Positions 6,827-44,914 of a stretch of 64,000 bases of DNA are shown in pieces. The stretch is from Bacillota bacterium (GTDB lineage: Bacteria; Bacillota; SHA-98; Ch115; JABLXJ01), in the NCBI GenBank assembly GCA_013178125.1, contig JABLXJ010000001.1, positions 248,001 through 312,000 of the forward strand. The letters are read 5' to 3'. The notes beneath the pieces are model-generated. The model was not told the DNA's origin. It searched no databases and saw only the letters and a program-made list of their open reading frames with translations. A program made the translations under genes and the position numbers. Positions within the stretch are counted from its first letter, which is position 1. Every line of letters begins with the position of its first letter.

Positions 6827-7618
6827 TCACCGGTATACCCGACCTGAGGGGCATGGCGGTACTATGGGGACGTTTCGCTTGAATTCTGTATTGCGAGCCC
6901 TGGCGAGGACGCATTCCACGAGATCGCCGTCCAGGCCTGCTGCCTGGAGCTGATCCTTTGTATAGCCCTTGTCGAAGGCGAGGCGCAGTATGGGATCGGC
7001 ATCTTCATAGGAGAACCCGAATTCCCTCTCGTCCGTTTGGCCCACCCAGAAGCCGGCTGTCGGCGGGCGATCGATTATGGTTTGCGGCACACCGAGAAGC
7101 TCGCCGAGCTTCTTCACCTCGGTCTTATATACCCAGGCGAGTGGGTTTATATCGCACGCCACGTCACCAAAGACCGAGAAGTAGCCGAGGAGATGCTCCG
7201 ACCTGTTGCCGGTGCCAAGGACAGCGGCGTTATTCATGGCTGCGACATGGTAGAGGATCGACATTCGCTCGCGCACCATCTTGCTCCCGATTCGCCGGGG
7301 GTCGTCGTCGGGCACCAGGCTCCTGTAGACCTCCATGAGCGGCGAGATATCGATCTCGAGAAGATTTATCCCGAGGTTCTCTGCGACGGCGCGGGCATCC
7401 CTGGCCAGATCAGTGCTGGCCGTGCCGCTCGGGAGCGATACCCCCAGCACCCTCTCCCTGCCGAGGGCCTCCACGGCGAGATAGGCGGCGACAGTGGAGT
7501 CTATGCCCCCGGATAGGCCTATTACGGTTTTGTCATAAGGAGTCTGCTTGATTGCCGCTGCGATGAAATCGACGAGGTCGCGGCGTAGATCCTGGTAGCA
7601 GGTAGGTGAATTTTGCAT
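6827..7618 (-). CDS. nadE: Ammonia-dependent NAD+ synthetase
   Basis: NadE amidates nicotinic acid adenine dinucleotide to NAD+, using ammonia and ATP. The PP-loop VIGLSGGIDSTVAAYLA lies near the N-terminus, followed by GTGNRSEHLLGYFSVFGD and KTEVKKLGELLGVP, all typical of the family. No glutaminase domain is fused, so it is the short ammonia-using form (263 residues). I chose ATG 7618 because GGAGGG precedes it by 6 bases; an upstream in-frame start lacks such a site. A good promoter lies at 7714-7742. Confidence 0.95.
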   Translation of the reverse strand: MQNSPTCYQDLRRDLVDFIAAAIKQTPYDKTVIGLSGGIDSTVAAYLAVEALGRERVLGVSLPSGTASTDLARDARAVAENLGINLLEIDISPLMEVYRSLVPDDDPRRIGSKMVRERMSILYHVAAMNNAAVLGTGNRSEHLLGYFSVFGDVACDINPLAWVYKTEVKKLGELLGVPQTIIDRPPTAGFWVGQTDEREFGFSYEDADPILRLAFDKGYTKDQLQAAGLDGDLVECVLARARNTEFKRNVPIVPPCPSGRVYR

Positions 7619-32659: not shown

Positions 32660-33341
32660 TGAAGCCCGGGAGCATCTGGACCGCGATGAGCTGGAGAGGC
32701 TTCAACATATGGACGAGCTCGAGGAGGAGCTCTTCCAGGGCGGCTACGTTAACGTTGCAGGCGTGGACGAAGCCGGCCGGGGGCCGCTTGCCGGGCCGGT
32801 CGTGGCTGCTGCGGTGATCCTTCCCCGCGGGGTTGAGATCCCATATCTCAATGATTCCAAAAAGCTCTCCCCGGGAAGGCGCGAAGCGCTCTACGAGATA
32901 ATAAAGGGGTGTGCTGTCGCTGTCAGTGTGGGCGTGGTATCCCACGATATCATAGATAGGATCAATATCCTCCAGGCCACGTTTCTCGCTATGCAGGAGG
33001 CTATAAGCAAGCTGAGCGTGCGGCCTGATTATATCCTGGTGGACGGGCGCGATATACCACAGTCCATCCTGCCGCAGAAGGGCGTCGTCGGCGGGGACGG
33101 CAGGTGCTCCTGCATTGCGGCAGCTTCCATCATTGCAAAGGTAACCAGGGACAGGATAATGATCGACCTGGATAAACACTACCCTCAATATGGCTTTGCG
33201 AAACACAAGGGATATGGCACCAGAGAGCATATAGATGCGTTGCGGACCCATGGACCATGCCCTTTCCACCGGATGTCCTTTTCCCTTGTTCGAAAGCATT
33301 CTAGTCCCACCATTTTCGATCTAACACGCGATATTGTATAG
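32625..33341 (+). CDS. rnhB: Ribonuclease HII
   Basis: RNase HII cuts RNA in RNA-DNA hybrids and excises single ribonucleotides. The metal site appears in VAGVDEAGRGPLAGPVVAAAV, with NDSKKLSPGRREALYE, DYILVDGRDIP and the C-terminal YPQYGFAKHKGYGTREHIDAL and GPCPFHRMSF. TTG 32625 is chosen because GGGAGGG precedes it by 6 bases; ATG 32649 has no ribosome site. The 5' end overlaps rbgA and the 3' end overlaps the convergent comM fragment by 41 bases. It is the last intact host gene before the prophage. Confidence 0.95.
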   Translation: MNPLRLKAMTPDEAREHLDRDELERLQHMDELEEELFQGGYVNVAGVDEAGRGPLAGPVVAAAVILPRGVEIPYLNDSKKLSPGRREALYEIIKGCAVAVSVGVVSHDIIDRINILQATFLAMQEAISKLSVRPDYILVDGRDIPQSILPQKGVVGGDGRCSCIAAASIIAKVTRDRIMIDLDKHYPQYGFAKHKGYGTREHIDALRTHGPCPFHRMSFSLVRKHSSPTIFDLTRDIV

Positions 33342-33795
33342 CCTCTGCCACATGTTCAGCTCTTATCACAACGGATGCCGCGAGGTCGGCTATCGTCCGG
33401 GCTACCCTCAGTATTCTGAAATAGGCCCTCCCGCTGAGCCCAAGCCTGGTGATGGCGTTCTCGAAGAGGAGCTGCCCATCCCCTGTAATTGTGCAGAATT
33501 CCTTTATATCCTGGGTCCTCATTTCAGCGTTACACATGAAGGACCTGGCCCTGTCTCCGGTTCCTCTGAATCTCCCGGCCTGGATGGACCGGGCCCGTCC
33601 CACTCGCTCGCGTATGGAGGATGATGGCTCGCACCCGCTGGCCCTGACAAGCTCCTCATGGGGAAGGCGCGGCACCTCGATGTGCATGTCTATCCTATCC
33701 AGGAGGGGGCCGGATATCCTGCTCATATAGCGCCTGACCGCCTGGGGGCTGCAACTACAGGGTCTTGATGAGTCCCCGAAGAACCCGCACGGGCA
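33301..33795 (-). pseudogene. comM: 3' fragment of comM (YifB, Mg chelatase-like AAA+ protein), interrupted by the prophage
   Basis: The fragment encodes the last 164 residues of ComM/YifB. It begins CPCGFFGDSSRPCSCSP, a zinc-knuckle region of the family, runs through SRISGPLLDRIDMHIEVPRL and ends ARTIADLAASVV, HVAEAIQYRVLDRKWWD. The family is about 510 residues, so the first two thirds, with the Walker motifs, are missing. Family similarity stops abruptly at 33795, where phage sequence starts. ComM is a hexameric helicase that promotes branch migration in natural transformation of some bacteria. The missing part is expected at the far prophage end, outside this window. Excision would restore the gene. 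Confidence 0.88.
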
Positions 33796-35390
33796 TCCGT
33801 GCAGACAACACCATTGGAAAAGGTGTAGTGTATTGTGACTGAGACCTTAGGCCGTCTATTATTGCCTTGGGAGACAGAATTCACCGTTATATGGTGGACT
33901 AAGGTCCTGACGATTTCCCGTCTCACTTTGAAGGATGGGTTTCCCTTGAGCTTTTCCCTCAAATCGTCCAGCAGATCTTCTGCTGTCTTAAACTGGGAGA
34001 ACAGATCATGTTCCTCAGATATTTGCCTATCAAGGTCTTTAAGGCGATGTTCGAGGGACTTCTTCTCCTGCTGGATGTTCTGTAGTTGCTGTTCCACGTC
34101 AAGAGCGGTAATGAGCCTCTTCCGGTACAATTCGAGGATGCGCTGCTTTTCGTTTTCCTTGTCTCGGATTTTTCCGCTTATGGCCTCCTGTTCTGCCCGC
34201 AGCGATTCTTCCTGTGACTCTCTGACCTTCATGCTGGCGGCAAGTTCCTGCAGGGCCTCACCAGGGTGTTGGATGAAGGTGACACAGTCATTCCAGACCA
34301 GGTCTTCGATCCACTTTTGAGGCACGTTTTTGGAGGGACATCTTCCAATGAATGGGCCCCGATAGGCCACCTTCCCTCCGCACACATAGTAACCTTTGAG
34401 TTCACCCTTGGGTCCGAGATAAGCTGTCCCGCAGTAAGTCAGGCCGCATACACCGCACTTGATCAAGCCTCGGAGGAGGTATTCGCGCCTTGAATTCCTC
34501 GGAGCCTCGAGCTGATTATTATGCAGGACATGCTGAGCCTTCTCCCAGAGCTCTTCACTTACAATGGCGGGCACTTCTCGAGGGATGATGTCTCTCTTCT
34601 TTCGTGTCCGTTTGCCGTAGTAATGGATGCCCTTATAAGTGGTGTTGGTCATAATGCCTCGTATTCGGGATGGTCTCCACACACCGGCGGTATTCTCTTT
34701 TCTCTTGCCGCGCCTTACTTGTCGCCTGTCTTTGATGTAAGCGGGAGGGACGCCAAGGGCGTTTAGATAGTCGGCTACCTTTATGGTTGAGTAGCCCTGG
34801 TCGGCAGTAAGGCGATAGATGAGGCGTATGACATCAGCCTCACTCATATCCAGCCCTGGAAGAGGGTCTTCGCATATCTCGAGATAGCCTTCATCGTTGA
34901 CCCGGTATCCGTATGGAACGATCCCTCCCAGCCATTTTCCGGCCCTGGCGGCGCGGTTGGCTCCGTACCACATACGTTCGAGGATAGTTTCTCGTTCCAG
35001 GTCGGCGACGCCAGCAAGGATGGTGAGGAGGAATCGCCCGTTGGGATCACCCGTATCAAATGGCTCGGTCATGGAGCGGATTTTGACGCCGTGTTGCTCC
35101 AATTCGTAGACGGCGTTTAGGATGATACGGGCCGAACGGCCCAGGCGGTCTAGCCGGTAGATGAGTAGCAGGTCAAACTTCCCGGCCTTCGCGTCCTCCA
35201 GGAGCCGGGCACCTTCAGGCCGCTGCTCAAGCGGAATGGTGCCAGTGACTCCATCATCCTTATACCAAGCCACTATGTTTAACTGGTGAAGGTCACAGTA
35301 TTTGGTCGCGAATTCTACTTGGTTCTCAATCGTCCCGCGCTCCTGTTGGTCTTCTGAGGAAACGCGGGCGTAGACAGCAACGTGTTCCAC
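33723..35390 (-). CDS. Large serine recombinase (phage integrase)
   Basis: This integrase catalyses insertion and, with a directionality factor, excision. The N-terminal resolvase domain has YARVSSEDQQERGTIENQ with the nucleophilic Ser, and LIYRLDRLGRS. The recombinase domain (about 170-280) and zinc ribbon (CGVCGLTYCGTAYL to GRCPS) follow, then a long coiled coil (about 395-480) and a C-terminal domain. GTG start after GGTGAGGG. The last 23 codons lie in comM-derived DNA, so the C-terminus DARAGSSGTHQ... is specific to the integrated state; the free phage must encode a different end. Confidence 0.95.
   Translation of the reverse strand: MEHVAVYARVSSEDQQERGTIENQVEFATKYCDLHQLNIVAWYKDDGVTGTIPLEQRPEGARLLEDAKAGKFDLLLIYRLDRLGRSARIILNAVYELEQHGVKIRSMTEPFDTGDPNGRFLLTILAGVADLERETILERMWYGANRAARAGKWLGGIVPYGYRVNDEGYLEICEDPLPGLDMSEADVIRLIYRLTADQGYSTIKVADYLNALGVPPAYIKDRRQVRRGKRKENTAGVWRPSRIRGIMTNTTYKGIHYYGKRTRKKRDIIPREVPAIVSEELWEKAQHVLHNNQLEAPRNSRREYLLRGLIKCGVCGLTYCGTAYLGPKGELKGYYVCGGKVAYRGPFIGRCPSKNVPQKWIEDLVWNDCVTFIQHPGEALQELAASMKVRESQEESLRAEQEAISGKIRDKENEKQRILELYRKRLITALDVEQQLQNIQQEKKSLEHRLKDLDRQISEEHDLFSQFKTAEDLLDDLREKLKGNPSFKVRREIVRTLVHHITVNSVSQGNNRRPKVSVTIHYTFSNGVVCTDARAGSSGTHQDPVVAAPRRSGAI
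33786..33805. other. Prophage-host junction, likely att core
   Basis: Host comM coding similarity (CPCG codons) ends at 33795 and non-homologous sequence begins at 33796. Large serine recombinases exchange at a 2-base core inside short asymmetric sites, so the crossover should lie within a few bases of this boundary. The partner site is beyond 64,000. Confidence 0.6.
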
Positions 35391-36313: not shown

Positions 36314-36511
36314 CTAGTTCACCTTTCTTTGGGCCAAATATGCGCATACCAATGATCGGAAGAGCGGTCCGTGGTTAGGCACCTTGAGGTGGAGTAGCTC
36401 ATGGACGATGACCTCTGCCCGGAAGTCGGCAGGCTCGTGAAGGAGATCGGTACTAAAACTGAGGCGCCCTGACGAGGAGCAGCTAGCCCACTTGTGTTTC
36501 ATGTGATACAT
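36314..36511 (-). CDS. Short YgjP-like (DUF45) zinc metallopeptidase domain
   Basis: Only 65 residues: KHKWASCSSSGRLSFSTDLL, then HELLHLKVPNHGPLF, the HExxH zinc motif with its third histidine. This is the C-terminal half of the YgjP/WLM family; the N-terminal domain is absent. Small versions of this kind travel with restriction genes. It overlaps the end of the Res gene by 13 bases, so translation is probably coupled. Function in the system is unknown. Confidence 0.78.
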   Translation of the reverse strand: MYHMKHKWASCSSSGRLSFSTDLLHEPADFRAEVIVHELLHLKVPNHGPLFRSLVCAYLAQRKVN

Positions 36512-39500
36512 AGAGTTGACATTATTTTTCTCACATAGTCACCTTCTTGAAAAACCAGCGGGTACTCTTTCTCTAAATCGTCTTTTGACTTACCTATGGC
36601 ATCCCTGATCTGGTTAAGTGGTGTAGTGGTAAGAATAAATCCGCTCAGGCGAATCTGTTTGGCTTGAAATTCTGGACGCTGGGTCAAGACACCCAAGGAC
36701 TTCAGAGCGGCAAATTTATCGGCGCTGCCGCTCAGACCGTCATGGTGTAATCCATGTGGGTCGACAAAGCAGACATGAGTTCTTCCATTCCGTTTGTCGT
36801 GTAGCCACAGAATAAAGTCCGGATAGAATCCGCTGCGATGAAATAGCCCAATCCCACTATTTGCCAGGTTACGCAGTAGATAGAGCTCGCACTCTTGTAG
36901 TTCGGGGTCGTTATGGTGCAGCGTCCAGTACTCGCGCAGGTCGTGCACAAAGTGGGCTTCGTCTTTGTTGAGTGCGGGCGGCGTTATCGAGACGGCCTGC
37001 TTCCAGGCACGCCCGCCTTCGGTCAAGATGGGATTGAACAGGCTACGATCTATGTATAGGCGTGGGAGCGGCTCGCCATCATCATGAGCAGGCAAGCCGT
37101 TTTTGAGCAGGTCCTCAATTTGCTCCAGGAACTCCCCCGGACGCACGCGGATGCGGTATTCGCTCAAGATTCGCTTGTCATAGGCGGGTAAGTATGCCAC
37201 TTCCACGTTTTGGCTCTCTGCTTCGCGCTCTTTCATGCGGATGAAGCGGTCCATGTAGGTCTTGAGGACCTGGGACGCCGCCGTCTGCAAGTGTTCCGGA
37301 TTACGGGCTTCCGTGGCGGGCAGCCTGATGCTACAGCGTCGACGTAAAATGCCAGGAATGACCTGCGGGTTAATACTCAAGTTGATATAGCCGCGCGCCG
37401 CTTTGTGTTCTATCAAATCCAGATAAAGATGCTCCAGGTTCAATGCCTGCAGGTAAGGTGCATCTCCAAAATCAATGGTCATACTGTCTGCTATTTGACC
37501 AGCAATCGTTTGGCCTGCTCTGTGAGAGGTCAGCATTACCAGTTTTGGGGTCAGCTCAAGTTTTATATCTGGGCCGCTGTCGTCTAGCATCCAGGTAAGC
37601 TTGGAGGAATCAAAATCAGGCCTCTTCTGGGGTACAGGCAATCTTTGTTCCGGCCAGGGCTTCAGGCGTGTCACTGTTAGAATAAATTCCTTGCCGATAC
37701 CTTCGTTCGTTAGAATTTGTCGGAAAGTCTGGATGTAGTCGGCGTTCCACCCGAAGATGGCTAGGGTCTCCAGGAAACGAATGCCTTCCGGATGGGAATC
37801 CTCTCCCAGCGCCGCGCTGCGCTTCAAGCTCATACCCTTCCCTTTGAGCCGTACGCCGCGCCCAAAAAGCTGGATTACCTGTGAACCTTCCCCCCTACCA
37901 ATGTTGAGCAACCCCATAGAAGAAACGCGCCAGGATGACCAGCCTTCGATGAATTTCTTGGCCCCGATGAGCAGATGGATGGGTGATTCGGGGTCATTGA
38001 CTCGCGCGAAGAGAGATGGAGTGAGATTGTCTTCCTGCACAGTAAGATTTAGGTGGTCACGGAGGTAGTTTTTGAAAGAAGACACATCCCCGATATTGAT
38101 GATACCGAAATAGGGTTTATCGCTTTCGGTTGTGGATAGGCGTAATCCCAGTTCCTCGCTGGCTTGTTTGAGTTCCCAAACTTCCAGTCCGCCGCTACCA
38201 TGAAATACCTCGGCGCGGATGTGCTCGTATACCTCGCGAGGGTCCTGACCGCATAGGTATTTGATATGCGGCGTAAAGAGGTCAAGGCCACTTTCTGCGT
38301 CCTGAAAGCCGCTGTTGTCATTCAGGATATTCTTCATCACGCTGATAGCCCACTCCGGTTCTTCCAGAAACCGTCGTAAAAAGGCCACTACTTCGGCTAC
38401 ATCACTGCGCCGCTCTCTGTTGCGGATGTACATGGCGTTGACGCTGCTCCCCAGGAGCACCCAGAGGGGCTTTTCCATGTTGTAGGGCCGGTACTCATCG
38501 ACATGCTGCCGGAAGAGCCAGAGCTGGTGGTAGTAGGCCAGGAGACCACCGACCAGAAGTTCGTGAGCCTGTTCGGGGCTGGCCTCGGTCAGGTTCAGTA
38601 CGTGGAAGTCCTTACCGTAGCCGTCGCTGTAGAAGTGGGCGTAAGAGTAGTCGAACAGTATTGCCTGTCCATATTCCCGGAGTAGGTCTTTCTGGACGCT
38701 GGAGGATGCCGCACCGATGGCCTGAGCGAAGGTGGCGCTGTATTCCAGTAGGAATCCGAATTCGCTCAGGCGTTTCTGGCGGTTTTTCCAGGTCTGCTCG
38801 TCACTACTGGTGCCCTTGTGCCCCTCGTCTACGATTACTAGGTTGTAAGGACCAATTTCGTCTAGCACCACGCTTACACCGTCCCGGGGGTGTTCTTCAG
38901 CCAGTTTGTGAATTTCAATGACCTTGACTCTGGGGCCAAAAAGGCTACTGTTGCCGTGTAGATCTTTGATGAATAAGGTTGCATCAAAGCCACTTTGCCG
39001 CAGATCGTTCAGATGCTGGGCAGAATGCCACTCTCCTGTTGTTATGAGTAGAATGTTATTAAACTCTACACGGCCATCCGGGCGGGTTACTAGTGTCTCG
39101 GGATGGCGGCCATGCTTTAGATAGTACAATACTTGCCATATGTTTACATGCATGATGAGCGTTTTGCCGCTACCGGTGGCCATGAAGAAAGCTAGGCGGC
39201 GTAGACCGTTTGGAGTGAAGTCTGGGAAATCCTTTAATTCGGTCTCCCTCTGGCGTAAGTCGGCGACAAATTGGCTCAGCTCGTCCAGGCAGCTACTAGG
39301 ATCCTTGGTCAACTTGTCTAAAAAGATCTCGGTATAGAGCAAGGCCAGGTACTGAAAGTAGGGGAAGCCCTGAAAATCGTGCCGGGCCTTGCGCAGGCGG
39401 GCCTCGTAGCCCATTACCCGACAGTCATAGGCTTCCAGTTCCTCGCGTTTGAGTTTTAGCCCCGGCTGGGTGACCAAACGGCTAAAGAAATAGCTCTGGC

Positions 39501-39621
39501 CGCTGCCGTCCGGACCTTCCGGAAGTGGGCGAAGCAGATTCTTGAGTGTTTCGAAGTCTTCCGCACCCAGTAAGTGGTGTATATAACGGTTGAGGACAAG
39601 ATGAGATTCCAAGCGGGGCAT
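36499..39621 (-). CDS. res: Type III-like restriction enzyme Res subunit (DEAD/DEAH helicase-nuclease)
   Basis: The 1040-residue protein is a superfamily 2 translocase. Motifs are Walker A ATGSGKTLIMH (near 148), DEAD-type VIVDEGHKG (near 265), SAT motif LEYSATFAQ and motif VI SQVIQLFGRGVRLKG. The C-terminus has PDFILWLHDK and HVCFVDPHGLHHDG, the PD...D/E-x-(K/H) pattern of a nuclease domain, with His where Lys is common. With the Mod gene 2 bases upstream it should cut unmodified DNA after ATP-driven movement. ATG start; reverse strand. Confidence 0.88.
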   Translation of the reverse strand: MPRLESHLVLNRYIHHLLGAEDFETLKNLLRPLPEGPDGSGQSYFFSRLVTQPGLKLKREELEAYDCRVMGYEARLRKARHDFQGFPYFQYLALLYTEIFLDKLTKDPSSCLDELSQFVADLRQRETELKDFPDFTPNGLRRLAFFMATGSGKTLIMHVNIWQVLYYLKHGRHPETLVTRPDGRVEFNNILLITTGEWHSAQHLNDLRQSGFDATLFIKDLHGNSSLFGPRVKVIEIHKLAEEHPRDGVSVVLDEIGPYNLVIVDEGHKGTSSDEQTWKNRQKRLSEFGFLLEYSATFAQAIGAASSSVQKDLLREYGQAILFDYSYAHFYSDGYGKDFHVLNLTEASPEQAHELLVGGLLAYYHQLWLFRQHVDEYRPYNMEKPLWVLLGSSVNAMYIRNRERRSDVAEVVAFLRRFLEEPEWAISVMKNILNDNSGFQDAESGLDLFTPHIKYLCGQDPREVYEHIRAEVFHGSGGLEVWELKQASEELGLRLSTTESDKPYFGIINIGDVSSFKNYLRDHLNLTVQEDNLTPSLFARVNDPESPIHLLIGAKKFIEGWSSWRVSSMGLLNIGRGEGSQVIQLFGRGVRLKGKGMSLKRSAALGEDSHPEGIRFLETLAIFGWNADYIQTFRQILTNEGIGKEFILTVTRLKPWPEQRLPVPQKRPDFDSSKLTWMLDDSGPDIKLELTPKLVMLTSHRAGQTIAGQIADSMTIDFGDAPYLQALNLEHLYLDLIEHKAARGYINLSINPQVIPGILRRRCSIRLPATEARNPEHLQTAASQVLKTYMDRFIRMKEREAESQNVEVAYLPAYDKRILSEYRIRVRPGEFLEQIEDLLKNGLPAHDDGEPLPRLYIDRSLFNPILTEGGRAWKQAVSITPPALNKDEAHFVHDLREYWTLHHNDPELQECELYLLRNLANSGIGLFHRSGFYPDFILWLHDKRNGRTHVCFVDPHGLHHDGLSGSADKFAALKSLGVLTQRPEFQAKQIRLSGFILTTTPLNQIRDAIGKSKDDLEKEYPLVFQEGDYVRKIMSTLCIT

Positions 39622-39623
39622 GG

Positions 39624-42600
39624 TCAGCCTTCCTCCCCTTGCATCATTAGGCTCTTGAAAAGTGGATCCAAGGACCGTACACCTGGCACAGGTGTGTCAC
39701 CGTTGATTAAAATTTCATCCCATATTTCGCCGTCTGCCGCCATTTTGGCTATCTTGCCTTCAAGGAAAGCGCGTTCGGCCTCTATGTTTAGGCTGTCCAT
39801 ATCGCGCCAGATAACCAAGATGTGGCGCTTGCCCTCCCGGTCCCTAGCTTTGACTACGCGATAAGCGCGGCCATTGTGCTCCCAGGTCTCGTATCGGCGC
39901 ACCCGTAGGCCATAGAGGTAGTTGAATGTCTCTACCACGTCGACCGGCTTGCGCACAGGGCCCTCGTCTGTGAGCACTTCCAGGCTGTAGTGGAAGGGGT
40001 GGCAAAGGTCTAGTGTGCGCAGGCAGGTTTCAGCCTCTTGCAGGGGAATCTCTATCCAGTAGCGCAGGCGGTAAGCGTCCTCGCCGGCCAAAGGCTTGAC
40101 CGCCTTTTCACGCTTTTCGGATCGTTCCAGAATGGACGGTGCGGCTAGGTTGTGTAGTGCGTCTTCGTAGGACTCCAGACGCAGGATTTTGATCAGCCGT
40201 GGAGTACGCTTGGCTTCTTCGTGTGTGGCCTCCCGCTTAGGCTTACCTTCTTTCCACTCCGGCGTGTACATCACTTTTACGATGCGCGGTAAGAGCACAG
40301 TGTCGAAGTAGTCGGCCATCTCCACCAGGATGAACCTGCGCCGTCCACCGTCTTCACGATTGAGGTTAATGATCGCGTGGCCGGTGGTGCCGGAGCCAGC
40401 AAAAAAGTCGAGAACATTAACATTATCGACGTATTTACCAGATATAAGAATACAACCCCGGATAAGCTCTACCGGCTTTGGATTATCGAAGATAGCCTTT
40501 GTGTCAAACAAATCGTGCATCATTTGAGTAGCACTGGCATTATTCCCAAACTGGGTATGGTCCCACCAGTTGGTTGCACACTGCCCTTCTTCTTCGCGCT
40601 CGAATTTAAAGTACTTCTTCCTTGGCAATCCATTACCCTTTTTAGGGAAGATGATTCTTCCCTCTTCTAACAGCTTTTTAAATGTTTCTTCGTCTCCCAT
40701 CCACTCTTCCTCGTAAACTCTTCCAGTTGGTGTTACGATCTTATAACGAGTGCCTGATTGCCCGGAACCGACCTTCCACGGTTTAGAGGCCCAAGGGCCT
40801 CTCGGATCATTGTCTGGGTTCGAAAATTTCCCAGTTACATCCAACTTACCCACTCCGGCACGCTTGAGTGAAATGGAATCTATAGAAAAGGCAAGAAGGT
40901 ACTCAGAAACTAAACCGATCATTTTAGTTCTATCATTTGGTTGATTGTGACGACGCCTCCAAGTTATAATACCCTCGAAATTGCCTTCACCAAAAACATT
41001 GGTTAACAAAATCTTAAGCTTATCAATTTCGTTGAAGTCAATACTCGAAAATAACACACCATCTTTACGTAATAAGTCCTTGGCAACCTCCAGCCGCTCC
41101 TCCATCATTGCTAGCCAGCTGGAGTGCTGGTAGCGGTCTTTGTAGATGAACTCGTCGTTGCCGGTGTTGTACGGCGGGTCAATATAGATGCACTTGATCT
41201 GCTCCTGATAGCGTTGCAGTAAAAGACGCAGAGCTTGATAGTTTTCCCCGTGCACCAAAAGGCCATCGGTAGCCTCGTCCAAATCGTTAAAGGGCAACGC
41301 CTCCAGCAGGCAGCGCACGAAGCTGCGGTCAAAGTGCCTGGTGTGCACCGGCAGGGTAGGGTGGGCTTCTAGGAAGGCCTCGTTCACCTCACCCGTCGGA
41401 TTGAACAAATCTTTCTCGGGCTCCAAAGCCAGCCAGCGTCGCCACTCTTCCAGCTGCCCTTCGTTTTGCAGGATCTCCGGCCAGAAGTCTCGGGGTACGT
41501 GTCGGATAGGGATGAGGTAGTTAGTCTCCAGCACAAACTTCTTCTTCTCGAAGAGGGTCTTCTGGGCGTCCTCAATGGTTGCCAGGAAGTCGATTACCTT
41601 CTCGGCCAGTTTACGGAAGGTGCGCATCACCCGGCGCTTGGCCTCCAGATCAGCCTCCAGGTCCATCAGGTGGATGATTTGGTCTTTGACATAAAACTCC
41701 AGCTCCCGGGTCAAAAAGCTACGCAGATTCTTGTGAATGAAGTAGTCACTAGTGTTGCGTCGGCAGAAGTGGCGCAGGCGCTTGAGCAAAAGGGGCAGTT
41801 CGGGCTTACCCTCTTCCTTGTCCTTTTCGCTGCGTTGGTCAGCGGCTAGAAGCGCCCGAATGTTAGCATCGGGTACGGCCTCCAGGATTTTGGGCAAGGC
41901 TTCTTGCAGGATGGCTTCCTGGGCCTTGCTGTTGGGGCCGTAGCGCTCGGCTTCCTCCGACGTGGGCAGGCGGTACTCGAAGGGAAGGATCAGTTCGCGA
42001 GCCTCGGCGTTGCAGGTTAACAAGTCAACGCGAGAGAAGAAATAGCGCGTGTTTCCCTTTGTGTTGTCCTTGGGGGTGTTCGCCTCGGCCATGGTAAAGC
42101 GCACGCGGTACTCGCCGGTAAGACCGCTCACCTTGAAAGCATAGTCTTTGAAGGTCTCGGCGGTCTTGACATAATGTTGGTCGCGGTTAGCCCAGGTAAA
42201 AAAGACCTCCTCGCCGTTGTAAGTCACTGCGTAGGTCTCCCGCACACCATATCGACGCTTCGGGATGAAGTCCCCGTCTTCGTAGTAGCGGCTGAAGAAG
42301 TTATACAGGTGGTTAAAGACCTCGGCTTTGTAGGCCTCGATTGCTGTGATGTCCGCAAGTTTATTTCGTAGTTCGGCATATTGCTTGACTAGTTTGATAC
42401 CGGAATACTGTGGATTCACCTCACCAGTCGGAAGGATGGCGTCTTCGGTGATCTGCTCCCGCACTTGCTGCGTCAGGGTTGTTAGTTCGGCCTGCAGGCG
42501 TTCCTGCTCCTCGCCAGTAATGGCCTCGAAAACAGCGTCTACCTCACGGGGCAGTTGTTCGCTTATGAAGGCTTCGATCTCCGCCCGCTTCAGATGGAAG

Positions 42601-42695
42601 AGGCGGTAGAGGCCAAAGTCTAGATCGGCAAAGTCGAATTGGAAAAGCTCCCGAAAGAGGGATTGGAGTTTTTTTAAGGCGTGTTCATTTCTCAT
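39624..42695 (-). CDS. mod: Type III-like DNA methyltransferase Mod subunit
   Basis: The 1023-residue protein carries amino-methyltransferase motifs in beta-class order: motif IV DPPYNTGNDEFIYKDRYQHS, then motif I LDFFAGSGTTGHAIINLN. A long N-terminal region of about 450 residues with helical, charged sequence precedes the catalytic part, larger than in classic Mod (600-700 residues). It modifies the recognition site and usually recruits Res. ATG 42695 follows AGGAAG; a TTG just upstream is less likely. The target sequence cannot be read from the gene. Confidence 0.9.
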   Translation of the reverse strand: MRNEHALKKLQSLFRELFQFDFADLDFGLYRLFHLKRAEIEAFISEQLPREVDAVFEAITGEEQERLQAELTTLTQQVREQITEDAILPTGEVNPQYSGIKLVKQYAELRNKLADITAIEAYKAEVFNHLYNFFSRYYEDGDFIPKRRYGVRETYAVTYNGEEVFFTWANRDQHYVKTAETFKDYAFKVSGLTGEYRVRFTMAEANTPKDNTKGNTRYFFSRVDLLTCNAEARELILPFEYRLPTSEEAERYGPNSKAQEAILQEALPKILEAVPDANIRALLAADQRSEKDKEEGKPELPLLLKRLRHFCRRNTSDYFIHKNLRSFLTRELEFYVKDQIIHLMDLEADLEAKRRVMRTFRKLAEKVIDFLATIEDAQKTLFEKKKFVLETNYLIPIRHVPRDFWPEILQNEGQLEEWRRWLALEPEKDLFNPTGEVNEAFLEAHPTLPVHTRHFDRSFVRCLLEALPFNDLDEATDGLLVHGENYQALRLLLQRYQEQIKCIYIDPPYNTGNDEFIYKDRYQHSSWLAMMEERLEVAKDLLRKDGVLFSSIDFNEIDKLKILLTNVFGEGNFEGIITWRRRHNQPNDRTKMIGLVSEYLLAFSIDSISLKRAGVGKLDVTGKFSNPDNDPRGPWASKPWKVGSGQSGTRYKIVTPTGRVYEEEWMGDEETFKKLLEEGRIIFPKKGNGLPRKKYFKFEREEEGQCATNWWDHTQFGNNASATQMMHDLFDTKAIFDNPKPVELIRGCILISGKYVDNVNVLDFFAGSGTTGHAIINLNREDGGRRRFILVEMADYFDTVLLPRIVKVMYTPEWKEGKPKREATHEEAKRTPRLIKILRLESYEDALHNLAAPSILERSEKREKAVKPLAGEDAYRLRYWIEIPLQEAETCLRTLDLCHPFHYSLEVLTDEGPVRKPVDVVETFNYLYGLRVRRYETWEHNGRAYRVVKARDREGKRHILVIWRDMDSLNIEAERAFLEGKIAKMAADGEIWDEILINGDTPVPGVRSLDPLFKSLMMQGEEG

Positions 42696-42813
42696 CAATT
42701 AATCTTCCTCACTTACACATCTTACCAGCGCCCTACCCACGTCCTTCCCTGCGACTCTGCAGGGCATCCTTATAGTTAACAGCTCAACCCTTGGCGGCCA
42801 CCATCACAAGCCG

Positions 42814-43269
42814 TTAGTCTACTAAATCTTGGGTCCTTGTGCTAAGTAGTTCGATTTTCTCCCTTACCAGCCACTCCATCACCTCGAAGTATTCCGCCAG
42901 TTCCCACGGGGTCCTGAGCCCCAGTTTGTATACTGCCCTGGCAAGTTCGTCGTCGGGTATAAGGAAATCTGCCGCCCATTCGACCGCCTTCCGTTCGTCC
43001 TGGGAGGTTACGACCCTGGGACCGCAGCTCATGTAGGCGGTGAGCACTGCTCCACGTGGTGAAGTCGCATCATGCCCGCATTCCTCACCCAGGACCGTGT
43101 TATGCAAGGCTTGGTCACGTTTAAGGTCCTTGTCCAACAGGATTACGCCTGAATTAAGTCTCCGGTCGAAGTAGTACACACCATACGCTTGGTAGACATC
43201 CCTTGGAAAACGTACATAACGAAGAACGAGGCCATTATCGGCAACGTAGTCAAGTAATTCTTTACGCAT
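42814..43269 (-). CDS. ImmA/IrrE-like zinc metallopeptidase
   Basis: The 151-residue protein resembles phage and ICE anti-repressor proteases of the ImmA family: VLGEECGHDATSPR holds the metal-binding helix, in the E-E-x-G-H form common in phages rather than HExxH, with downstream QDERKAVEWAADFLIP. ImmA cleaves the neighbouring repressor after DNA damage and so induces the element. ATG 43269 follows GAGGAG by 8 bases, and only 5 bases separate it from the repressor stop. Confidence 0.88.
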   Translation of the reverse strand: MRKELLDYVADNGLVLRYVRFPRDVYQAYGVYYFDRRLNSGVILLDKDLKRDQALHNTVLGEECGHDATSPRGAVLTAYMSCGPRVVTSQDERKAVEWAADFLIPDDELARAVYKLGLRTPWELAEYFEVMEWLVREKIELLSTRTQDLVD

Positions 43270-43274
43270 AGTGT

Positions 43275-44081
43275 CTACTCCTCTATGCCACGTTCGCACC
43301 GTATAGATTTGATTTGTCCTGCTAGCCATTTCAGGAATTCTTGTGAAGGCTTGCGTCCATATTCGCCCTCCAGGTGGGCTGCTAGGCGCTCAATATCGAA
43401 GTCTTCCTGGAATGTATCAGGGTTGAGGATAGGTTCCTCAGGTTCCTTATCGGCTTCCTTCACCTCTGCTTTATCCTCTAGTTTCTTGAACGACATGGCA
43501 GTATCGATCAAAGTGGCGAGGCGCTTCTTGTCGCCGGGGCTGAGTGGTTTACCATCGACGAGGACGTAATCATTCTTTGTGAGTGCTTCCTTTAGATCAA
43601 TAGGAGGGAGAGTCTTTTTTTCTCTACCCAACAGATAATCTACGGGAACAGAAAAGAAGTCCGCAAGGGCAACAAGGATTTCTCCTTTGGGTTCCCTTTT
43701 CCCATTTTCATACATGCCGATTGCTTCAGGAGTTACGCCTATGACAGCGGCGACATCCTCCTGACGCAGACCTCGAGCCATTCGCAGTTCTCTAAGTCTA
43801 GTTCCAAGATCTGAGGACGCCTCCCGAGTGTCAAGGATCTCATCCCGAGTATCAAGGATTCCATCAGGTTGACGTTTGATATCGCTTGCACCTAAGAGAT
43901 AATCCAGCGATACATTGAAGAACTTGGCAAGTTTGATTAAGGTATCCCTATCTGGAAATCTCTTACCCTGCTCATAATAGGTTATGGCCACACGTGACAA
44001 ATTCACCTGATGGGCCAACTCGCGCTGCAGTAAGCCCTTTTCTTCACGTAGCGACTTAAGCCTCTCAGAGAAGGTTGCCAT
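43275..44081 (-). CDS. Phage repressor with two tandem XRE-type HTH domains (ImmR-like)
   Basis: The 268-residue protein has two complete helix-turn-helix domains: residues 1-62 (FSERLKSLREEKGLLQRELA ... VSLDYLLG) and about 93-152 (RLRELRMARGLRQEDVAAVIG ... VPVDYLLGR). They are joined by a linker with the duplicated sequence ILDTRDEILDTRE. A charged C-terminal part follows, ending in YGRKPSQEFLKWLAGQIKSI. Single HTH is usual for ImmR-type repressors. It is transcribed away from the Cro-like gene and lies next to the ImmA-like protease, which probably cleaves it. Confidence 0.9.
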   Translation of the reverse strand: MATFSERLKSLREEKGLLQRELAHQVNLSRVAITYYEQGKRFPDRDTLIKLAKFFNVSLDYLLGASDIKRQPDGILDTRDEILDTREASSDLGTRLRELRMARGLRQEDVAAVIGVTPEAIGMYENGKREPKGEILVALADFFSVPVDYLLGREKKTLPPIDLKEALTKNDYVLVDGKPLSPGDKKRLATLIDTAMSFKKLEDKAEVKEADKEPEEPILNPDTFQEDFDIERLAAHLEGEYGRKPSQEFLKWLAGQIKSIRCERGIEE

Positions 44082-44113
44082 TCTTGCACCCCATTGCCAG
44101 CCCGTCTGCTTTT

Positions 44114-44142
44114 AGTTTACCCATAAAGGTAGCAGTATGCAA
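44114..44142 (-). promoter_or_regulatory. Leftward promoter for repressor and protease
   Basis: On the minus strand, TTGCAT (44137-44142) and TAAACT (44114-44119) lie 17 bases apart, about 33 bases before the repressor start codon. Confidence 0.6.
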
Positions 44143-44162
44143 CTTAAGGAAACAAACTGGTA

Positions 44163-44179
44163 CTTTTCTTCGAGAAAAG
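44163..44179. promoter_or_regulatory. Palindrome CTTTTCT-TCG-AGAAAAG
   Basis: Seven-base arms flank a three-base centre between the two divergent promoters. Its sequence differs from the GTAAC sites nearby, so it may be an operator for the second HTH domain of the repressor or for another regulator. Confidence 0.5.
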
Positions 44180-44192
44180 ATAAGGTTACCTG

Positions 44193-44221
44193 TTGACAAG
44201 TAACATTATGTTACTTATAAT
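44193..44221 (+). promoter_or_regulatory. Rightward early promoter with operator in the spacer
   Basis: TTGACA (44193-44198) and TATAAT (44216-44221) are exact consensus hexamers with the ideal 17-base spacer. The perfect palindrome AAGTAACATTATGTTACTT (44198-44216, 9-base arms) fills the spacer and touches both hexamers, so a bound repressor dimer would shut out RNA polymerase. It drives the Cro-like gene and probably the early genes. Confidence 0.85.
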
Positions 44222-44258
44222 GAAGGTAACAGATCGATACTTGATAGGGGCATGAATC

Positions 44259-44513
44259 ATGAAGCAAACAAGGTTACGAGATATTAGGCTTTCCAAGGGC
44301 TTACGCCAACTGGATGTAGCCAGACGGGCTAGGATAACAAGAGTCTTTTATACACAAATCGAAAATGGTTATCGCTTGCCGTCAATGCAGAAGGCCAGCC
44401 AGTTGGCCAATGCCTTAGGTATCTCAATTGAGGAGCTTTATGATGCCCTTGAGGTAACTTACCGTCACGCAAGAGACAAGGAGACTGGTCGCGAACAACA
44501 GTCGGCTTCTTAA
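44259..44513 (+). CDS. Cro-like XRE-family regulator
   Basis: The 84-residue protein consists of one helix-turn-helix domain: RLRDIRLSKGLRQLDVARRA, TQIENGYRLPSMQKASQLANALG. It is divergent from the repressor, the classic lysogeny-switch layout. The ATG follows AGGGG. An operator-like palindrome (44453-44463) lies within its coding end. Confidence 0.88.
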   Translation: MKQTRLRDIRLSKGLRQLDVARRARITRVFYTQIENGYRLPSMQKASQLANALGISIEELYDALEVTYRHARDKETGREQQSAS

Positions 44514-44602
44514 GTTCGCTTCTGACCCTTGCCCATCAATTACAGTCTATCACGGGTGAGGTAACAGATAAACCAAAGCAGCAAAGAAAGGAGGGACAAA
44601 AG

Positions 44603-44914
44603 ATGTTCTACACCGGCGGGAAGGCCATAGCAGTTGACCTGCGGTTGAAGAGAGAAGCCAAAGGGCTTACAATGGCGCAGTTCTCCGAGTTTCTGGAGTG
44701 TGACCCAAAGCATGTCTCTAACCTGGAGCTTGGATATTGCGGCCTGACAATCCCGAAGGCAGCCAGGGCTGCTGCTGTGGTTGGCCCTATCACCGTGGAT
44801 GTCGAGGGAGTAGGGCGCGTGGTGATTGCGCCAGCTAACCAAATGCCGGTCGATCAAGTGCGCGAATCTGTCGTGGACTACGGTATGAATCATGGCTTTG
44901 GCCTGGTGATGTAA
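44603..44914 (+). CDS. Small HTH-type phage protein
   Basis: The 103 residues include an XRE-like segment (LRLKREAKGLTMAQFSEFLECDPKHVSNLELG) followed by a short domain without known motifs. A DNA-binding accessory regulator is likely. The ATG has the strong site AAGGAGGG. It is the second gene of the early rightward unit. Confidence 0.75.
   Translation: MFYTGGKAIAVDLRLKREAKGLTMAQFSEFLECDPKHVSNLELGYCGLTIPKAARAAAVVGPITVDVEGVGRVVIAPANQMPVDQVRESVVDYGMNHGFGLVM

Follow-up and report, generated by a model that had tools for sequence, protein, structure and literature searches.

A tandem two-HTH phage repressor facing a predicted array of GTAAC-type operators between divergent promoters

The repressor ImmR of ICEBs1 is a single-HTH protein, and its gene adjoins that of the M78 protease ImmA. 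According to the accessible part of the source, ImmA cleaves and inactivates ImmR in ICEBs1 (PMC6540685). Phage repressors with two HTH domains as such are already published: for phiCDKH01_17 of a Clostridioides difficile phage, two XRE HTH domains, gel shifts on the divergent control region and repression of the lytic-side promoter are reported in the available sections of the paper, where the authors also state that an operator consensus could not be defined (PMC11172241). A structure exists for a mycobacteriophage repressor with two DNA-binding domains; the Cluster A repressor (TipsytheTRex, L5) carries both domains on one chain, including a stoperator domain, and binds an asymmetric site as a monomer (PMC9283540). 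Two tandem XRE domains, together with an XRE gene upstream on the opposite strand, are also found in the Brevibacillus phages Abouo (gp50) and Osiris (gp60) and in the Clostridioides phage phiCDKH02 (phiCDKH02_05), in which an ImmA-family gene follows; phiCDKH02_05 and Abouo gp50 are 31.7% identical. In phiCDKH02, genes for a single-HTH XRE protein, the two-HTH protein and the ImmA-family protein lie in a row (L071, 1430–2922), and both the single XRE protein and HTH1 of the two-HTH protein share a K-S-T helix start with the divergent XRE gene product.

The locus described here resembles the latter three in its gene arrangement, including the ImmA-family gene of phiCDKH02. It is located in a window of 64 kb (the whole stretch of DNA that was analysed), which holds one end of a prophage with a lysogeny module of repressor gene, ImmA-like gene and divergent Cro-like gene. 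A serine integrase gene (33723–35390, Resolvase/Recombinase) lies directly beside a truncated C-terminal piece of Mg-chelatase/ComM, whose N-terminal part is matched at a distance of about 70 kb on this contig (at ~352 kb of C1, outside the window). It seems that a comM/Mg-chelatase gene is split by the prophage; comM is not mentioned in the accessible part of PMC12637031. The two gene parts (33301–35390 region and C1 ~352 kb) cover overlapping profile positions (156–172). At the other end of the element, a 148-aa ORF with two XRE domains adjoins the far comM part (L031, C1 ~352 kb). The segment between the ImmA-like gene and the integrase gene (36499–42698) encodes a probable Type III restriction–modification pair (N6_N4_Mtase and ResIII domains).

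The repressor gene (43275–44081, minus strand) encodes a protein of 268 amino acids assigned to the transcriptional regulators of phrog_8 (8.6e-48). Pfam HTH_3 is matched in two stretches (whole protein 3.8e-35), which places the protein among the XRE (Cro/CI-type) phage repressors. Both stretches are complete XRE domains, namely residues 4–64 (HTH1, 43890–44072, minus strand) and residues 92–152 (HTH2, 43626–43808, minus strand); HTH2 is a canonical HTH and scores highest of the two against HTH_3. An AlphaFold model from the single sequence was of low quality (mean pLDDT 56.9). As a lysogeny regulator with two XRE domains in tandem, the protein is of the phiCDKH01_17 kind by description, and phiCDKH01_17 (21.7 kDa with tag) is the shorter of the two according to the available text (PMC11172241). 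Abouo gp50 is 37.7% identical to residues 1–159. As in the Cluster A repressor, one chain carries two DNA-binding domains; in contrast to it, the sites in the window are palindromic and both domains are ordinary XRE domains.

Directly next to the repressor gene, on the same strand, lies the gene of an ImmA-like M78 metalloprotease (42814–43269; phrog_87 metallo-protease, 2.4e-13; Pfam Peptidase_M78, 1.6e-3, below its cut-off). An XRE repressor gene adjoining an M78 protease gene is the ICEBs1 arrangement, and HTH1 matches the ICEBs1 regulator 7t8i (3.3e-11). The window system differs from ICEBs1 in the second HTH domain of the repressor and in the protease motif, which is EExxH (EECGH) instead of HExxH; the protein is therefore termed ImmA-like and not counted as a member. 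The corresponding motif is EELGH in phiCDKH02 and HELGH in an ImmA-like ORF on contig C29 of the same genome (L057). The latter ORF adjoins a gene for a single-HTH repressor, and the alignment with this repressor takes in HTH2 and the residues behind it in one piece (residues 90–192; 47 identities in 110 aligned positions); C29 was the only one of the 12 retrieved stretches that was read in detail, the others having entered domain scans only. The C29 protein thus resembles the first part of the C-terminal region (residues 153–268, 43278–43625, minus strand) as well. With the C-terminal 117 amino acids as a query, matches were obtained in 2 of 398 genomes, the source genome and one other (6.4e-4), and no relative of residues ~220–268 was found in this search. 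A role of the ImmA-like protein is therefore argued from gene neighbourhood. From the C29 alignment we infer a fusion of HTH1 to an ImmR-type module.

The divergent Cro-like XRE protein (44259–44513, plus strand; HTH_3, 6e-15) is preceded by a promoter with a 12/12 match to the consensus, TTGACA-17-TATAAT (44193–44221, plus strand; −35 box 44193–44198, −10 box 44216–44221). Its 17-bp spacer is exactly AGTAACATTATGTTACT, and the spacer plus one base per side forms the perfect palindrome AAGTAACATTATGTTACTT (44198–44216) with 9-bp arms. When the 177-bp intergenic region was dinucleotide-shuffled 2000 times, arms of at least 9 bp (spacer ≤14) were reached in 1.4% of cases. GTAAC or GTTAC occurs 62 times in the 64 kb, with seven occurrences in 44082–44600 and four starting within 44185–44226. 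A half-site matrix with the 44198 palindrome as its only source was used to score all 19-bp dyads in the window; the three best dyads after the seed, tied at 12.19, were all situated in the intergenic region. These are AGGTAACAGATCGATACTT (44224–44242), downstream of the −10 box of the Cro promoter, AGGAAACAAACTGGTACTT (44147–44165), just upstream of the repressor promoter, and AGGTAGCAGTATGCAACTT (44127–44145), covering the −35 box and the spacer of the repressor promoter; each agrees with the perfect palindrome at 13 of 18 positions. Plain matching at ≥12/18 returned 13 places in the 64 kb, five of them intergenic: the seed, the three sites at 13/18 and nine at 12/18, of which one is intergenic (AGAAAAGATAAGGTTACCT, 44173–44191) and is listed as a doubtful, weak fifth operator. 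Not one of 5000 shuffles of the flanks reached three sites of ≥12/18, versus four observed besides the 44198 palindrome. A seed search blind to the palindrome returned the same five places, and none of 150 shuffles was as good. The centres of the four sites are 20, 51 and 26 bp apart.

The probable repressor promoter, TTGCAT-17-TAAACT (44114–44142, minus strand), is not significant by itself (score 6.78 versus a shuffle median maximum of 7.79), and it aligns without gaps to TTGCTG-17-TATAAT at the related locus L175 described below. Judged by the DNA sequence, the GTAAC class comprises an array of four or more predicted sites, two beside each promoter, shared between the repressor gene and its divergent Cro-like neighbour. 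The preliminary description of this locus had proposed two full HTH domains, divergent promoters and a GTAAC palindrome filling the spacer of a consensus promoter; all three are borne out, and the GTAAC class is stronger than described there, as it comprises four sites. Two-HTH repressors recur in phages, and the available portion of the report on the published case gives neither a consensus operator nor an assay of the individual heads (PMC11172241), while the window offers a defined, predicted four-site array. The palindrome (AAGTAACATNATGTTACTT) had no counterpart in the viral contigs (0 places), and at ≤3 mismatches nothing but the site itself was found in the whole source genome. A wider promoter pattern matched at one place in the viral contigs (L206, 11029–11057), which was discarded because no repressor is adjacent, the sole XRE domain found there being at 6881–7111. 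No cluster of three GTAAC/GTTAC within 60 bp was present in the Abouo, Osiris and phiCDKH02 loci. Two short repeats extend beyond the intergenic region: the exact 11-mer AGGTAACAGAT occurs in the outer Cro operator (44224–44234) and at 44559–44569, before an ORF at 44603, and TGAGGTAAC occurs at 44450 and 44557. Both may be further half-operators.

A search with HTH1 in 398 genomes of the phylum identified L175 (genome G238) as the best match outside the window (72% over the domain). The L175 repressor has one HTH domain and is 56% identical over 85 aa to the N-terminus of the window repressor; the recognition stretches are LSRVAITHYE and LSRVAITYYE, respectively. The Cro-like proteins are 49% identical over 71 aa, the Cro-side promoter of L175 is TTGACA-AGTTACATTTTGTTACT-TATAAT with an operator in its spacer, and the divergent regions align without internal gaps. 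No ImmA-like gene was seen by eye among the ORFs of ≥80 aa in 14 kb of L175. The spacer operator of L175 agrees with the perfect palindrome at 16 of 18 positions, and a site at 1785 (14/18) faces 44147, so the 51-bp distance is kept. The outer sites are weak (1765, facing 44127, 10/18; 1862, facing 44224, 13/18). Here, the matrix favours an overlapping site at 1872 over 1862 (13.1 versus 8.5), which makes the last spacing 36 instead of 26 bp, and the seed search likewise chose 1872 (spacing 51 and 36; 2 of 150 shuffles as good); the 20/51/26 spacing therefore applies to L175 by alignment only. Over 19 bp, the four sites of the window and L175 are identical at 11, 13, 17 and 11 positions, and the doubtful fifth site at 7. 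The array matches that of the single-HTH relative in part.

How specific such matches are was judged from 217 sources in which the exact window palindrome is absent. No match among them exceeded 16/18, a value reached at two places only, L175 and L182, each of which appears under several locus names in this count. L182, too, is a single-HTH system, and the recognition helix of its repressor begins with S-R like that of L175; its array was equalled by 76 of 150 shuffles in the seed search. A combined pattern of promoter and operator, designed so that the window and L175 would both fit it, was found in 4 of 398 genomes: in these two by construction, and in G130 (L182) and G214 with three mismatches each. 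In the seed-array search, no significant array emerged at C29, Abouo, L088, phiCDKH02, L181 or L182. As four sites of 12–14/18 were also present in the divergent region of one place with a differing helix (L156/L179), and matches of 15/18 to the window palindrome occurred elsewhere among the 217 sources, only strong matches are informative; loose operator matches in AT-rich genomes are non-specific. The L156/L179 place (~1353–1458, G212) is a divergent XRE pair in which AACTAACATTTTGTTAG-type sites follow one another; these are near to, but distinct from, the window class.

To assign the predicted operators to one of the two domains, the contact positions were compared, which we take to be the two residues after the first residue of the recognition helix (numbering from the 434 repressor). 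HTH1 (LSRVAITYYE) and the Cro-like protein of the window (ITRVFYTQIE) both have R-V and were the only ones to do so among 109 distinct XRE domains; among 254 distinct domains, L175 was added as a third. HTH2 (VTPEAIGMYE) has P-E, neither of which is common to Cro, and the only domain with this pair among the 254 is HTH2 itself. The first contact residue was common to both partners in 34 of 65 divergent pairs of single-HTH repressor and Cro, compared with 11.4% in mismatched pairs; the pairing rule was mechanical (the longer protein being taken as the repressor), and some pairs are probably not true partners. In two-HTH repressors, the first contact residue was common to Cro for HTH1 in four of six pairs, with both residues common in two of the six, and for HTH2 in none; of these six pairs, two are closely related and come from Brevibacillus, and a single query supplied three (L084, L087 and L088); three-XRE-domain regulators (L061–L063) were set aside as a differing kind. 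In Abouo, Osiris and phiCDKH02_05, the contact residues differ from those of the window repressor. The first contact residue tracks the partnership of repressor and Cro, with HTH2 as the odd one out, and the comparison suggests the rule that the N-terminal head tends to match Cro, as the second head did in none of the six pairs. Given the near-identical helix of L175 and its same promoter and spacer operator, HTH1 probably reads the GTAAC class, together with Cro, and the two HTH domains probably differ in specificity.

A second palindrome, CTTTTCT-TCG-AGAAAAG (CTTTTCTTCGAGAAAAG), is present at 44163–44179. The preliminary description had suggested that it is a second site class, and that each HTH could read one class and bridge the two promoters. 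In such a model, HTH1 dimers would hold GTAAC sites and HTH2 dimers the second palindrome, looping or bridging the control region. The differing contact residues of HTH1 and HTH2 fit this model, as does the position of the exact palindrome, whose centre (44171) is no more than 1 bp off the point halfway between the operators centred at 44136 and 44207; moreover, two palindrome centres with arms of ≥7 bp occurred together in only 0.7% of shuffles, the GTAAC site being one of the two here. Taken singly, however, arms of ≥7 bp arose in 7.2% (spacer ≤5) or 15.8% (spacer ≤14) of the 2000 shuffled intergenic regions, and 0.11 such palindromes are expected per 177 bp of the window. At ≤3 mismatches, the 64-kb window contained no further copy beyond its own reverse strand. 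In the whole genome, both strands gave 15 matches at this threshold (its own two strands included) versus 8 for a backwards-pattern control, with no second exact match. The palindrome also shares 3 bp (44163–44165) with the right end of the 44147 operator, and the exact 17-mer occurs at three places in viral contigs. The segment holding most of it (44166–44192) is identical to L175 at 10 of 27 positions; the best match to the 17-mer at the L175 locus has five mismatches, and a weaker dyad, ACTTTT-N6-AAAAGT, was read by eye at the equivalent of 44166–44192. If this dyad is the same element, it is present where the repressor lacks HTH2; if it is a different one, the second palindrome is not common to L175. 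Whichever way it is read, the sequence provides no evidence for an HTH2 site.

One class is thus repeated and the other is single-copy in the window and within chance, which is not the pair of repeated, distinct operator classes expected of a bispecific repressor. The second palindrome is probably incidental, a chance palindrome; as a true second operator class it was rejected on these two counts and because it overlaps an operator and is not conserved in register. The reading of GTAAC sites by one domain (HTH1) stands as probable, whereas that of a second class by HTH2 is not supported, and the looping or bridging model is very unlikely. Bridging of the promoters via a second class is not supported either: putative GTAAC-class operators are situated at both promoters, and one site class suffices to link them.

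Both HTH domains of one chain might instead occupy neighbouring half-sites or operators of the GTAAC class, a dimer covering about two operators. Once the weak fifth site is counted, the centre spacing becomes 20, 26, 25 and 26 bp, and the accessible part of the mycobacteriophage work describes a repressor in which a single chain occupies one site with both of its DNA-binding domains (PMC9283540). On the other hand, HTH2 is without the R and V common to HTH1 and Cro, the fifth site is not conserved in L175, and the single-HTH repressor of L175 has a closely similar promoter-operator with the same 51-bp distance. We regard this arrangement as quite unlikely.

The reading that we favour, and hold to be fairly likely, is a lambda-like divergent switch in which HTH1 reads one operator class and is fused to an ImmR-type module, the second palindrome constituting no class. 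HTH1 and the divergent Cro would recognise a common operator of about A[AG]GTAACA-N3-TGTTACTT, at least four copies of which would span the repressor and Cro promoters. Because one operator lies inside the spacer of the Cro promoter, bound repressor is proposed to block RNA polymerase there, and the activity of the repressor's own promoter would be adjusted by how far 44127 and 44147 are occupied. HTH2 and the start of the C-terminal region would represent the ImmR-type repressor module fused behind HTH1, most likely conferring oligomerisation and sensitivity to the adjoining ImmA-like protease and perhaps additional DNA affinity. As a canonical HTH, HTH2 may bind DNA itself.

How much HTH2 contributes to DNA binding is where two further readings depart from the favoured switch. 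It could be carried along as a passenger that does little or nothing at the DNA, and what matters would then be the fused C-terminal region; this is possible, if doubtful, as HTH2 and the following residues align as one unit with the C29 repressor and no second repeated site class was found, but its fully canonical HTH and the best HTH_3 score of the protein suggest that selection keeps HTH2. A rather unlikely reading is a bispecific repressor, in which HTH1 would silence the prophage via the GTAAC array and HTH2, with its differing contact residues, would bind an operator class elsewhere, so that one protein would have two immunity specificities and one ImmA-like off-switch for both; the target may then lie in a host gene, in a different mobile element or in a part of this element outside the window. 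If HTH2 does bind elsewhere, such a fusion would be a route for phages to combine immunity specificities or to add protease control. The linker between the two domains contains a 21-bp imperfect tandem repeat, read by eye (43820–43861, minus strand; ILDTRDE-ILDTREA), which could vary the distance between the heads.
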